From the NCBI GenBank assembly GCA_012521875.1, contig JAAYLN010000062.1, positions 1-33,719 on the forward strand: a DNA stretch of 33,719 bases, given 5' to 3'. Positions 8,583 through 30,200 of the stretch are shown here, piece after piece. This stretch comes from Lentisphaerota bacterium. Lineage in GTDB: Bacteria; Verrucomicrobiota; Kiritimatiellia; RFP12; JAAYLN01. The position numbers and the translations under genes were made by a program. Each line of letters opens with the position of its first letter. The first letter of the stretch is position 1. The notes beneath the pieces were generated by a model. The model ran no database searches and was not told the origin of the DNA. It was given only the letters and a program-made list of their open reading frames with translations.

Positions 8583-8698
8583 CACCCCCACTTAAAAGCC
8601 CACTTAAACCCACTCTTAAACGGTACACTTCATCCATCCGCTTACTCTTTAGCTTTCGACAAAGTTTGCGACAAAGCTCGCGACAAAGAGGGGTTCTA
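8583..8698. repeat. Composite intergenic repeat: CACTTAAACC block + three GACAAAG iterons (12-bp spacing)
   Basis: cccacttaaaacccactcttaaacggtacactt-type block, then cttactctttagctttCGACAAAGtttgCGACAAAGctcgCGACAAAG; related to 10207-10400 and 10636-10826. Confidence 0.75.
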
Positions 8699-9858: not shown

Positions 9859-10206
9859 CAGGAGGACAGGCGTTTTTGCAGCCGGCACGAGCTGCGATGA
9901 CTGTACATCCGTCCCGACCGTGCCGGCCGAATCGGCATATGCCGCCGCAAGCGGCGGGAAAGAAAGCGCGTCCGGGTCCGCGCACTCAAAACCGCTTGCG
10001 CACGTAGTGCGCTGCGCGGGGTGACCGAACAGACCGTTTCGCATCAGTACCGGGCGTCCGGGCGGGAGGGAGGGACGAGCGTCTGCTCGTCCTCGGAGTT
10101 GCGGGCAAGCAGACGCTTGCCTCTCTCGGCGGCAGTTCCGGTAGTACCGGCAGTTCCGGGCTCGAGGACGAGGACGAAAATCCGCCCATCAGCTTTCCTG
10201 CTGCAT

Positions 10207-10400
10207 TCGACAAAGCGTAGGGACGAAGTGAGGGGACGAAGCGTATCCGACAAAGCGTGGGGACAAAGTGCGTGGACAAAGTGTTGGAGCGGAGCACCCA
10301 CTTAAACCCTCTCTTAGTCTCACTCTTAATCGGTACGCTTAAACCACCCGCTTACTCTTCCGCCTTCGACAAAGTTATTGGCAAAGCTCGCGACAAAGTT
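10207..10400. repeat. Composite intergenic repeat: six GAC(A/G)AAG iterons (13-14 bp period) + CACTTAAACC block + three GACAAAG-like iterons
   Basis: cgacaaagcgtagggacgaagtgaggggacgaagcgtatccgacaaagcgtggggacaaagtgcgtggacaaagtg...gagcacccacttaaaccc...cggtacgcttaaaccacccgcttactc...cgacaaag...ctcgcgacaaagtt. Confidence 0.85.
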
Positions 10401-10405
10401 ACTGA

Positions 10406-10494
10406 AAGCCCTGAAGGGGCGCGATATACCAGGCCCAGGGCAACGCCCTGGGGAATGAAGCTAAAAACGACTAGCCCTGAAGGGGCGGGACATA
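10406..10494. repeat. REP-like palindromic repeat (AGCCCTGAAGGGGC ... CCCAGGGCAACGCCCTGGG ... AGCCCTGAAGGGGC)
   Basis: Direct reading of the palindromes; related arrangement at 22824-22916. Confidence 0.75.
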
Positions 10495-10635: not shown

Positions 10636-10826
10636 CAATACACCGCGGAGACCGCGGGCTCCATGGCGCATCTGGAGCGAACTGGGAGCCGGAACTCTCG
10701 CTTGCTCATTCGCTTTCGACAAAGTGTGTAGACAAGGTGTGGAGACAAGGTGTAGTGCGGAGCACCCACTTAAACCCACTCTGAAACTCACTCTTAATCG
10801 GCACACTTAAACCACCCGCTTACTCC
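10636..10826. repeat. Composite intergenic repeat with CCGCGGAGACCGCGG unit, GACAA(A/G)G iterons and CACTTAAACC block
   Basis: First ~110 bp match the reverse complement of 29174-29316; last ~65 bp match 10293-10357. Confidence 0.85.
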
Positions 10827-10863
10827 ATTTTCGCGTGCATACTCGCCCATTCGCGGCTCCCCT

Positions 10864-11034
10864 TTCGCGCTTTTCGCGTTTTTCGCGGTTAAAATAACAC
10901 CATCAATTCGCGTCCATTCGCGTCCATTGGCGGTTCCTGTTCTCCGCGCCTCTGTGCCTCCGTGCCTCTGTGAGAGACTACCATCTGCATTCGACGAAGG
11001 CGACAAAGTTACCGACAAAGCTCGCGACAAAGTA
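10864..11034. repeat. Intergenic repeat: TTCGCG tandem words, CCTCTGTGCCTCCGTGCCTCTGTGAGAGA, then GACAAAG iterons
   Basis: Second half includes cgacaaagttaccgacaaagctcgcgacaaagt; the CCTCTGTG... segment recurs inverted near 22413-22440. Confidence 0.7.
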
Positions 11035-11193
11035 GCCATCCCAACTTCCTACTGCCACTGCCTGCTGCTACTGCCGCCGCCCCGCTCCGGGGCTGCGGCC
11101 CCCCCTGTCCCCTGTCTCCTGTCTCCTGTCCCCCGCGCCCCCGCTCGCCGTGCACCGCCGTGCGCGCGGGGCAGCACAGGGCGCGCGCGGGGC

Positions 11194-19096: not shown

Positions 19097-19119
19097 GCGA
19101 TTCAACACGGTTGAATCGC
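19097..19119. repeat. Inverted repeat GCGATTCAA-cacgg-TTGAATCGC
   Basis: Perfect 9-bp arms; related imperfect copy GTGCGTTTCAACCAAGTTGAATCGCAC at 30105-30131. Confidence 0.7.
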
Positions 19120-19156
19120 ACTAGTAATCGGTTGGCGACAGGGGGGGCAACAATAC

Positions 19157-19330
19157 ACTTTGTCTCACCACTTTGTCTCCACGCTTTGTCCCTTTACGCT
19201 TCGTCCCCGCACTTTGTCTCCACACTTTGTCGAAAATTTCGCGGCTGAAGCGATTCCGACAAAGCGTAGGGACAAAGTGATTGGACGAAGTGTAGCCGAC
19301 AAAGCGTAGGGATAAAGTGTAGGGACAAAG
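19157..19330. repeat. Head-to-head array: six CTTTGTC/CTTCGTC units then six GACAAAG/GACGAAG/GATAAAG units
   Basis: Six units on each arm (19157-19231 and 19257-19330) around a ~25-bp centre (gaaaatttcgcggctgaagcgattc). Confidence 0.85.
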
Positions 19331-19376
19331 AGAGCGAATTCTTCGAGAGCACCCCTGTCACTAGCCGATAATCGCA

Positions 19377-19994
19377 CTATGCCTCCTGGCGCCCGCCCAG
19401 GGCGCGCTTGAGGGTTAGCGGGTCGGAATAGCCCACGCCGCTGTCGACCGGCAGGCCGAAGGCCAGCCGCGTGACGCGGACCGGCCTTCCGCCGCGCAGC
19501 AGTTCCTGGACATAGGCCGCCGTGGCGTCGCCCTCGAGATCGGTGCTGACGGCCAGGATGATCTCGGTCACCGGTTCGCGCGCCACGCGCTCGGCCAGCG
19601 CCTGCAGGCGCAGGTCGGCGGGGCCCGTGGCGCGGGCGGCGGAGACCTTGCCGTGCAGCGCGTGGTAGCGCCCCGTGAAGACCCCGGCGCGCTCGATGGC
19701 CAGGATGTCGCCCGGCTCCTCCACCACGCAGATCGTGGCGGCATCGCGGCGGGGATCGGTGCAGAGCGGACAGGGGTTGGCGTCGCGCACGGTGAACCCG
19801 CCGCAGACATCGCAGCAGCAGACCGTCGCCCGGGCGTGCTCCAGCGCCGCCAGCAACTCCTGCAGCAGTCCCGTGGGACGGCGCACGAGCGCCAGCGCGG
19901 CGCGCTCGGCCGAGCGCCGGCCGAGCCCCGGCAGGCGCGACAGCACGCGGATCAGATTGTCAAGCGGTGGCTCCATGCGGTCAGCTTCAGCCAC
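19377..19994 (-). CDS. recR: Recombination protein RecR
   Basis: LIRVLSRLPGLGRRSAERAALAL; zinc finger CCCDVCGGFTVRDANPCPLC; Toprim ICVVEEPGDILAIERAGVFTGRYHALHG. Confidence 0.96.
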   Translation of the reverse strand: MAEADRMEPPLDNLIRVLSRLPGLGRRSAERAALALVRRPTGLLQELLAALEHARATVCCCDVCGGFTVRDANPCPLCTDPRRDAATICVVEEPGDILAIERAGVFTGRYHALHGKVSAARATGPADLRLQALAERVAREPVTEIILAVSTDLEGDATAAYVQELLRGGRPVRVTRLAFGLPVDSGVGYSDPLTLKRALGGRQEA

Positions 19995-21974: not shown

Positions 21975-22823
21975 AAGCCATCCCGCCGTATCCAAAATCA
22001 AACTTCATCATAGCCCTACCGTGGTGGCCGCCGCCCATGGCGGCCGGCCCGGAAAATCAATGCGGCTATTCTAGCCGATTTCTGTTCTAACTTCCATTGC
22101 ATTCTGATTTTAGACTGCCGCGCGGCTGCGCCGCGAGAAAACCATGGAGCAACTGCGACAAAATGTCCAAGTTATAGGCAAGATTTGTGATTTGGGATTT
22201 GTGATTGGGGCTGCGCGCGGAAGCATGCGTGGTGCGGTGGCGGAGACTGGTTTTTTGAATCAGGAACTCAGGAAAGCAGGAATTGTTTGTTGGGGGGAGC
22301 TGCGCGCTGAAGCATGAGCGATGCGTTGGCTGCGACGGGTTATTTTAGCTACGGATGTCCTGCTTCGCAGGCGCATATGTCGCGGATTTGCGCGGAAGGC
22401 TGCGGGGAAGTCTCTCACGGAGGCACGGAGGCGCGGAGGGGGCGCGGGTGATTTGAATTGGTTTAACCGCCAGATTGGCGCAGATGTCCGCAGATTTGAT
22501 CGGGGGCACAGGCGGGATGGTGATGGGGGGCGATGCCGTCGGCAATCAGCTTCGACGGGGGTCGACGGGGGTCGATTGGGGTCGGGTGTTTGGGGTGTTC
22601 TTGCAAAAGCGCGCCAGCACAGGTGGGGCGACGCCGTCCCGGCAGTGATGGAGCGTGGCAGTGTGGGGCAGGTATTCCTGCCTGCCCGCGGCTACGTGCG
22701 CAGACAGGAATGTCCGCGCCACATTGGGGCAGCATTCGGCGATAATCGGTGATCCTGTCGCCGCCTGTCGATACCTGTCGCTACCCGCCGGCAGTTCCGG
22801 TACTGCCGACAGGTATTGAACAC

Positions 22824-22916: not shown

Positions 22917-23221
22917 CCGGCAGACAAACCTTTTCTCAATGCAAGCCGGATACGGGCAGGATCCTGCCTAAGGTCGAGCACTCGCCAAACAATCACCGTG
23001 TCCTCTTCCAAGGCGTAGTAGATGGCGTAGGGAAAGCGCTTAGATAGCATGCGGTAGTAACCGTAGACCTTGGCGTGGATTCCAGCATACCGGGCTAAGG
23101 AATCGATGTCCGAAAAGAGAGAGTCAAAAAAATAAGCACCTATACCTTTGGCCTGTCCCTCATAGAACAGACGACCGGCGTGTAGATCAGCGACTGCCGA
23201 GGCGAGGACTTTGATCTTCAT
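22913..23221 (-). CDS. RelE/ParE-superfamily toxin
   Basis: MKIKVLASAVADLHAGRLFYEGQAKGIGAYFFDSLFSDIDSLARYAG...KRFPYAIYYALEEDTVIVWRVLDLRQDPARI; overlaps the antitoxin by 4 nt. Confidence 0.85.
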   Translation of the reverse strand: MKIKVLASAVADLHAGRLFYEGQAKGIGAYFFDSLFSDIDSLARYAGIHAKVYGYYRMLSKRFPYAIYYALEEDTVIVWRVLDLRQDPARIRLALRKGLSAG

Positions 23222-23436
23222 TCAAAGCGCTCTCTCAGCTCCCGTTTTGCTGTATCCCAGTCCATTATCGGCTCCTCACCGGCAGCGACACGCGCCTTGG
23301 TCTCGCGTAGGGCATCGGCGTGCCAGACCGGCGATTCCACATCCGTCTCGATCTTGGATAGATCCGCCCAGAGAGCTTCGAACAGTTGAAGCTTTTCCGA
23401 GTGTGACATCTGCTTAATCTGAACCGCAGTCACCAT
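23218..23436 (-). CDS. Addiction module antitoxin (putative addiction module component family)
   Basis: MVTAVQIKQMSHSEKLQLFEALWADLSKIETDVESPVWHADALRETKARVAAGEEPIMDWDTAKRELRERFE. Confidence 0.83.
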   Translation of the reverse strand: MVTAVQIKQMSHSEKLQLFEALWADLSKIETDVESPVWHADALRETKARVAAGEEPIMDWDTAKRELRERFE

Positions 23437-23442
23437 GATGAT

Positions 23443-23471: not shown

Positions 23472-23530
23472 TCGTTCTTTTCGCGTAACTAGTGAATAAT
23501 GAATATCATTCACCATAGCTCGCGACAAAG

Positions 23531-29173: not shown

Positions 29174-29316
29174 CACCTTGTCTCCACACCTTGTCCCCAC
29201 ACCTTGTCTCCTGCACCTTGTCTCCACACCTTGTCGAAAGCGAATGAGCAAGCGAATGTTCCGGCTTCCCGTTCGCTTCGGATGCGCTTTGGAGCCCGCG
29301 GTCTCCGCGGTATATT
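29174..29316. repeat. Composite repeat: five CCTTGTC iterons (13-14 bp period) + CCGCGGAGACCGCGG unit (inverted relative to 10636-10755)
   Basis: Reverse complement reads ataccgcggagaccgcgggctccaaagcgcatccgaagcgaacgggaagccggaacattcgcttgctcattcgctttcgacaaggtgtggagacaaggtg. Confidence 0.85.
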
Positions 29317-29874
29317 GATGCGGCGCATGAATAGCGAACGATACCGCCGTGGACGGCGGGCTCCAGCGTTCCGGCCTCTCCGTTCACATTCGCTGGCGCC
29401 TGTACCGAACCGCCCTGCCCGCCGCGCCGGTACAAGATCACGGCACAGCAACCGAAAGGTAGGGCGAGCCGTCCCTGTCTGCCGCTACGCGGCATGACCG
29501 GCGAGCCGCACACAGGTGATAAACCGTCAAGACGACAAGAGCGCAAGGTTAAGTCAATCTTCCGACTAGCCATCACGGCCGGAGTACCGCCTTCATGGAA
29601 TGTTGATTTATTCCAAGCGCGGATTAATCAGGAAATCAAGGAAAGCAGGAAGGATGGAGGAATGCGCGGGTTTCACAACAAATTCCAGATTTCCTGTTTT
29701 CCTGATTCAAAAAAACAGCAGGGATCCGCAATAAGTCAACACTCCCTGAAGCCGGTACTCTGACGCGACTGCAACCCTCATGCCGGGACTGTACCGCCAT
29801 CTCCGCCAATATCAGTGGGTGCTCCGCACCTGCACATGAGCGGCTCTTGCAGTTGTGGGCTTGCAGTTTTCCCG

Positions 29875-29905
29875 CCGGCAGTACCGGCAGTTCCGGCAGT
29901 CCCGG
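29875..29905. repeat. 9-bp tandem repeat CCGGCAGTN
   Basis: ccggcagtaccggcagttccggcagtcccgg; related words at 10130-10160 and 22788-22810. Confidence 0.7.
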
Positions 29906-29925
29906 CTTCATCGGTACTACCAGCC

Positions 29926-29957
29926 GGGTGCGCTCCACAATAGTGGATGCGCACCCA
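29926..29957. repeat. Strong hairpin GGGTGCGCTCCAC-AATA-GTGGATGCGCACCC
   Basis: Near-perfect inverted repeat with a 4-nt loop. Confidence 0.65.
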
Positions 29958-30200
29958 GAATTCAGAATTCAGAATGAAAAAGCGCCTCCTTTTGCTTCCC
30001 TCTTTGTGTCCATGCAATTGGGACACACATCCTGAATGGACGGCAAAACACTCAAATTGTTGCCTTGCAATATTCTGGATACCGGATTCTGGATTCTGGA
30101 TTCTGTGCGTTTCAACCAAGTTGAATCGCACCCCTACCAGCCTTGCCGGGGTCTTAAGTCCATCGCCAGCCACTTGCAGCGCGCGAGCTCAACCGCGCCC

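Follow-up and report, generated by a model that had tools for sequence, protein, structure and literature searches.

GACAAAG repeat arrays in a Kiritimatiellae genome: probable inverted arms of a dispersed mobile element with an IVP/S23 gene in its coding form

Repeat arrays at the locus

The window, i.e. the whole stretch of DNA that was analysed (33,719 nucleotides), belongs to a Kiritimatiellae MAG of 3.96 Mb in 469 contigs that is 93% complete. An initial annotation had listed seven runs of GACAAAG-like words and a single such word, all of which are present (the word lies at 23524), and had assigned them to one family with a 13-14 bp period. They are not all of one array type, since the runs at 8657-8688, 10367-10400 and 10991-11034 belong to a different 12-bp type (GACAAAGTTACC / GACAAAGCTCGC), here called array B. 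Upstream of panC, an inverted arm M of diverged GTTTAAG/GATTAAG units with the leader TCTTTAGCTTTC (8587..8656, minus strand, delimited from the sequence and including a two-unit minus array at 8603-8621) is followed by an array B of three GACAAAG units at 12-bp spacing (8658..8688, plus strand), 36 bp from the gene. A fuller composite begins with an array A of six ordered units (CGTAGG, TGAGGG, GACGAAG-CGTATCC, CGTGGG, TGCGTG and last; 10209..10281, plus) and continues with the tail hairpin GAGCGGAGCAC, which has a GNA-type loop (10287..10297, plus), an arm M of GATTAAG/GTTTAAG units (10301..10344, minus) and an array B at 12-bp spacing with the leader CCGCCTTC (10368..10398, plus). The same arrangement recurs nearby as a three-unit array A (10718..10750, plus), the hairpin GTGCGGAGCAC with its inverted arm M (10755..10830, minus) and an array B with a GACGAAGGC leader unit (10993..11032, plus). 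The single GACAAAG, within AGCTCGCGACAAAGTT (23524..23530, plus), is a remnant of array B. The run reported at 29174-29235 is an array of the A type, on the minus strand, with five GACAAGG units and the leader GAAAGCGAATGAGCAAGCGAATG (29176..29235).

In composite elements, ordered GACAAAG units are followed by inverted GATTAAG units, in many cases with a GCGAAGC-type hairpin between the two, and then by the 12-bp array B. Over 52 copies of array A the order of units is fixed (CGTAGG, TGTGGA-like, the 14-bp GACGAAG-CGTAGCC, CGTGGA, TGTGGG, last). The inverted stretch M, of diverged GATTAAG/GTTTAAG units, follows array A in about half of the copies, and ahead of M there is often a short GNA-loop hairpin (GTGCGAAGCAC and its variants). 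Array B follows in about a quarter and has units of 12 bp. Adjacent arrays within 70 bp are inverted in 32/34 pairs here and in 26/29 pairs in relatives.

The run at 19157-19330, beside recR, had been read as one and consists of two arrays, on the minus (19158-19231) and plus (19258-19330) strands. They form a 249-bp inverted unit (19124-19372) in which two six-unit arms pointing apart lie inside the terminal repeats GTAATCGGTTGGCGACAGGG. From left to right, the left terminal inverted repeat GTAATCGGTTGGCGACAGGG (19124..19143, plus), the left arm of six units (19158..19231, minus), a 26-bp centre between the head-to-head arms (19232..19257, delimited from the sequence), the right arm of six units, one decayed to GATAAAG (19258..19330, plus), and the right terminal inverted repeat CCCTGTCACTAGCCGAT (19353..19369, minus) can be distinguished. 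The direct repeat AATCGCACTA occurs immediately outside, at 19114..19123 and at 19370..19379, the recR stop codon forming the final three bases of the right copy. It is only a putative target duplication, because the left copy also belongs to another repeat, GATTCAACNNGGTTGAATCGCAC. The latter is a REP-like palindrome separate from the arrays, present in the window at 19098-19121 and 30106-30132.

Other tandem words share these spacers (CCGGCAGTACCGGCAG, CATTCGCGTCCATTCGCG, CTCCGTGCCTCTGTG, ACTGCCTACTGCC, CCTGTCTCCTGTC, TCAGGAANNCAGGAA and CAGAATTCAGAATTC, at 10130-10159, 10863-11133, 22258-22282, 29626-29651 and 29875-30105), and in 345 kb the words for which counts were made hardly occur within CDS; ACTGCCTACTGCC is similar to the sequence flanking an IVP gene of the source genome on contig C16. 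A palindromic cassette, CCCTGAAGGGGCG...CCCAGGGCAACGCCCTGGG, lies directly after array B at 10404-10490 and also follows several other arrays. Two small ORFs at 22920-23440 on the minus strand have, by eye, the look of a ParE/RelE-type toxin-antitoxin pair. The window contains no match to Rfam families and no tRNA.

Number and placing of the arrays

Counted genome-wide, as the initial annotation had proposed, near-matches with at most two mismatches to the 20-bp two-unit probe GACAAAGYGTRGRGACAAAG number 702 + 713 = 1,415 in the MAG, far above chance, and the reversed control gives 0. In a 345-kb sample with self-trained gene calls, GACAAAG occurs 362 times per 100 kb of spacer and 10.5 times per 100 kb of CDS (~35x), and GATTAAG 99 and 0.4 times. 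The proposed confinement to intergenic spacers is borne out by 98/102 sampled arrays; 40/85 spacers of at least 150 bp hold an array, and no orientation bias relative to flanking genes was seen in this sample. Extrapolation from a 611-kb sample gives an estimate of ~920 arrays in the genome. Array counts are to be read as lower bounds, since the genomes compared are mostly fragmented MAGs whose contigs are broken by the repeats.

The arrays are not CRISPR, in which identical repeats alternate with unique spacers; here the 5-8 bp between heptamers are conserved and in fixed order. Nor are they classic REP sequences, in agreement with the initial annotation. No description of this repeat class was found in the open-access literature, and phage origin was set aside with one match in IMG/VR. 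The arrays do not match plasmid-type iterons, which would form one or a few direct-repeat clusters beside a rep gene or origin; no rep gene was found among the Pfam-scanned neighbours of arrays. The role in replication or segregation that had been suggested is not supported, because the ~900 sites are dispersed, mostly inverted arms, are absent from the sampled congener and are tied to a mobile-looking gene family. Protein binding, which had also been suggested, is plausible.

The IVP partner gene

Proteins encoded near arrays in other genomes were compared all against all, without bias towards any family, and one recurrent partner emerged. This largest recurring family, seen in four genomes from four families, is a two-domain four-helix-bundle protein of the '23S rRNA IVP'/S23 type (PF05635/TIGR02436). 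In the source genome a single two-domain IVP gene is present (G000:C236:716-1459), and it lies between GACAAAG arrays. Its inverted-flank score, for which the 200 bp before a gene are aligned locally to the reverse-complemented 200 bp after it and the best alignment is taken, is 52. The arrays immediately adjoining this gene are decayed and the nearest good arrays point away from it, whereas in relatives they point toward the IVP gene; since the direction is opposite, the palindromes of the window are not simply internal deletions of the present IVP copy.

A search of the class with the four two-domain proteins returned full-length relatives in ~15 other genomes, and almost every two-domain IVP gene in the class lies closely enclosed between inverted arrays built from units of 12-14 bp. 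The array words are subfamily-specific (GACNAAG, GGGTAAG-like, GACGAGGATCGG-like and GACAAAGCTCGC). The subfamily with GACAAAGCTCGC ends, represented in G346 (L281) and G324 (L280), carries the word of the window's array B; no IVP gene of this subfamily was found in the source genome, and array B may be what remains of an IVP element that has since been lost. Among genomes with a two-domain IVP gene, those matching the GACNAAG probe are over-represented (odds ratio 12.6, p = 2e-9, for a gene list cut by score and uncorrected for relatedness). Genomes G476 and G478 have many arrays and no two-domain IVP match, which may reflect incompleteness or loss.

The association extends to IVP genes of any kind, with 29/47 scoring at least 20 compared with 1.0% of 792 control genes. 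This threshold was reached by 18/26 IVP genes in the class set (mean score 25.7, against 11.4 for mismatched pairs) and by 11/21 in genomes from other groups, for the most part other phyla, that were reached via RecR loci; no clear inverted flank is present at about a third of IVP genes. The single-domain IVP genes of the source genome adjoin inverted tandem words (scores 19, 30 and 16), two of which recur in other spacers, and one of the proteins weakly matches the Avd model. The tie between IVP genes and arrays is statistical and positional. Literature searches limited to open-access papers brought up no earlier account of tandem arrays beside IVP genes. Weak IVP-like domains are also present in longer proteins of 228 and 281 aa at loci L252 and L253, with GGGACGAATGGGACA repeats around L252.

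Distribution among relatives and empty sites

RecR of the source genome is 84% identical to that of a Lentisphaerae-labelled MAG. The exact probe had no match in the congener G001 or in sampled family members, and at most two in any other of 390 phylum genomes, so that it is essentially confined to the source genome. Degenerate cousin arrays (GACNAAGNGT / GACNAAGNGTNNNGACNAAG) are present in 34/346 class genomes, with controls near zero, and have the same unit types in the same order (CGGTTC/CAGTTC, CGTAACC, TGTGG, TGT), as well as the inverted layout. The element is therefore common to members of the class, through descent or transfer, and its expansion took place in the source genome.

Sites that are empty in relatives can be identified. 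The spacer between recR and the AKR gene measures 302 bp in the window and 22 bp in G001, and in G476 two genes that nearly adjoin in three congeners, the second resembling murJ, are separated by a ~490-bp block with the element. In a genome of another class (L148, G230), 11 GACGAAGTGTAGA and 10 GACTAAGTGTATAA units lie at opposite ends of a contig, pointing inward, and both break the assembly.

Mobility, terminal repeats and target duplications

In genome G475 the same single-domain IVP element is present four times, each time in an unrelated context, with 98.6-99.6% identity between copies over ~480-520 bp; near-identical copies at unrelated loci indicate that IVP elements move. They end in GGCGCATGGCAGTTCTG and TAATCG arrays, and their left ends are constant. 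A direct repeat of 9 bp accompanies the copy in which both ends are present; one of 11-12 bp is found at a related, decayed element in G010 (another family), and one of 8-9 bp at a two-domain element in G003. A 90%-identical relative of the G003 element in G011, again of another family, has none. Direct repeats accompany 3 of the 4 IVP elements with identified terminal repeats in relatives. Direct repeats of at least 8 bp were found at 4/10 terminal-repeat units compared with 8/2,601 random placements. Separately, loci L347 (G589) and L349 (G599), from different families, share 93% DNA identity over 973 bp comprising an IVP element and the first part of the gene after it, a similarity suggestive of recent horizontal transfer.

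Within 611 kb of the source genome there are six units bounded by terminal repeats, all with arrays, and 14 unpaired repeats; most arrays lack terminal repeats. The window unit has a duplication of 10 bp and the other five have none. A general target duplication was rejected, as none of at least 8 bp occurs at any of 41 sites (0/41) where no inverted repeat was found outside the arrays. It follows that duplications are restricted to units with true terminal repeats, or else the terminal repeats are a second mobile layer. No transposase was seen inside a pair of terminal repeats in 611 kb, nor beside arrays among 10 scanned neighbours.

Interpretation and alternatives

Arrays occur in inverted pairs, the source genome's own IVP gene lies between arrays of the same word, IVP genes are bracketed in many genomes, near-identical elements occupy unrelated loci and the spacers are empty in relatives. 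We propose, with a probability of about two in three, that a dispersed mobile element has GACAAAG arrays as its inverted arms of ordered units and, in its coding form, encodes an IVP/S23 four-helix-bundle protein, and that the copies in the window are gene-less derivatives. The initial annotation had held that identity with a known insertion-element end would speak against a new repeat class; this comes near the answer, except that the element itself is not a known one.

With regard to mechanism, we know of no catalytic activity or site in IVP proteins, so that a separate copying enzyme would be needed. An IVP oligomer may recognise the phased heptamers of its own family and recruit such an enzyme in trans, whereby gene-less copies could spread, by analogy with REPINs and RAYT. 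The gene-less arms of IVP elements have probably been amplified in the source lineage. One candidate catalyst is a DDE transposase acting on terminal repeats, a route favoured for some units by duplications of 8-12 bp beside such repeats; the other is a reverse transcriptase, a route made conceivable by the IVP relative Avd. The source genome has three reverse transcriptases, which look like the group II intron type and lie on other contigs. IVP proteins assemble into rings made of five four-helix bundles (2gsc, 2rld; a reference cited in PMC10053308), and Avd is a PF05635 homologue that works with a reverse transcriptase (PMC10053308).

Alternatively, the units could be ordinary MITEs of a DDE insertion sequence, whose transposase acts on ~20-bp terminal repeats (GTAATCGGTTRGTGACAGGG here, with candidate ends GTAATCGG...CCGATTAC, and GGCGC... 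in relatives), the arrays and the IVP gene being passengers. A GTAA start with a duplication of ~8 bp is reminiscent of the IS66 family. The direct repeats of 8-12 bp beside terminal repeats at the window unit and in G003, G475 and G010, and their excess over random placements, favour such a reading; nevertheless, most arrays and most IVP elements lack a terminal repeat of this kind, duplications are missing at 5/6 units in 611 kb of the source genome and no transposase was seen within terminal-repeat pairs there, and we regard it as unlikely. Growth of passive minisatellites by slippage and their spread by template switching in repair, with IVP genes merely lying in such spacers, would fit both the mosaics of many tandem words and the gain of a whole mosaic block in G476. 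It would account poorly for non-identical, ordered units kept across families, near-universal inverted pairing, the specificity for IVP genes relative to control genes and the four identical elements with constant left ends, and is accordingly less probable still.

An RNA role, as terminators or processing sites, is suggested by the very strong folding of the window palindrome, one strand of which folds 13 SD better than shuffles (z = -13), and by rRNA intervening sequences of the same protein family that are RNase III substrates (PMC4990558). However, the composite element folds close to shuffles (z -1.78 and -0.06), and the arms differ at the fourth heptamer base in several relatives, leaving mismatches; sequence, not pairing, is therefore conserved, a covarying hairpin was rejected and RNA hairpins are a very improbable explanation. 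Least probable of all is the idea of the initial annotation, that a nucleoid, segregation or regulatory protein of the host uses the arrays as its sites. Phased, conserved heptamers in large copy number do resemble protein sites, but the arrays are missing from the congener and sampled family members, are inserted between genes that adjoin in relatives and show no preferred orientation.

If the IVP reading is extended, IVP genes with gene-specific inverted arrays would form a widespread, unrecognised class of mobile elements, gene-less remnants of which would make up much of the intergenic tandem-repeat mosaic in many environmental bacteria, with 23S rRNA intervening sequences as one special insertion site; for this broader proposal the balance is about even. 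Many environmental genomes encode IVP/S23 proteins, for which structures have been solved (2gsc, 2rld) and no function is agreed, and mobility of rRNA intervening sequences through their ORF has been hypothesised only (PMC4990558). As the pairing recurs in other genera and phyla, the long-debated role of IVP becomes testable. An inverted array specific to each IVP gene offers a concrete substrate, in a family tied to Avd of diversity-generating retroelements, and IVP elements offer one cause for unexplained mosaics of short tandem repeats between genes. Such a system would resemble REPINs while depending on a protein for which no nuclease activity is known.

Comparison with known systems

Diversity-generating retroelements share a PF05635 homologue, Avd (PMC10053308), and differ in that neither a template/variable repeat pair nor an adjacent reverse transcriptase was seen here. 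MITEs are likewise gene-less units with inverted ends and occasional target duplication, but most copies here lack classic terminal repeats and duplications, and the relative that was found codes for IVP, no transposase-coding parent having been found. REPINs/BIMEs with their RAYT (TnpA-REP; PMC2817692, PMC3116915) are similar in being short, inverted intergenic repeats in hundreds of copies and alternating orientation, and in having a cognate gene flanked by the same repeats, which here is the C236 IVP gene between GACAAAG arrays and not RAYT. Unlike REPINs, the arms are arrays of phased 12-14-bp units rather than single palindromes, and the partner is a four-helix-bundle protein. A Y1 (HUH) REP-associated transposase as the mover was rejected, as PF01797 had 0 matches in the 93%-complete MAG and was matched in 5 control genomes.

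ORF-less intervening sequences of 23S rRNA are known. Those with an S23/IVP ORF, as in Leptospira and Coxiella (PMC4990558), involve the same protein family (PF05635, TIGR02436), place the ORF between inverted repeats and have long been suspected of mobility. No insertion within a 23S rRNA gene was seen here, the flanks being protein-coding. In contrast to the rRNA intervening sequences, the elements described here lie between protein genes, end in tandem arrays, reach a very high copy number and include one two-domain form.
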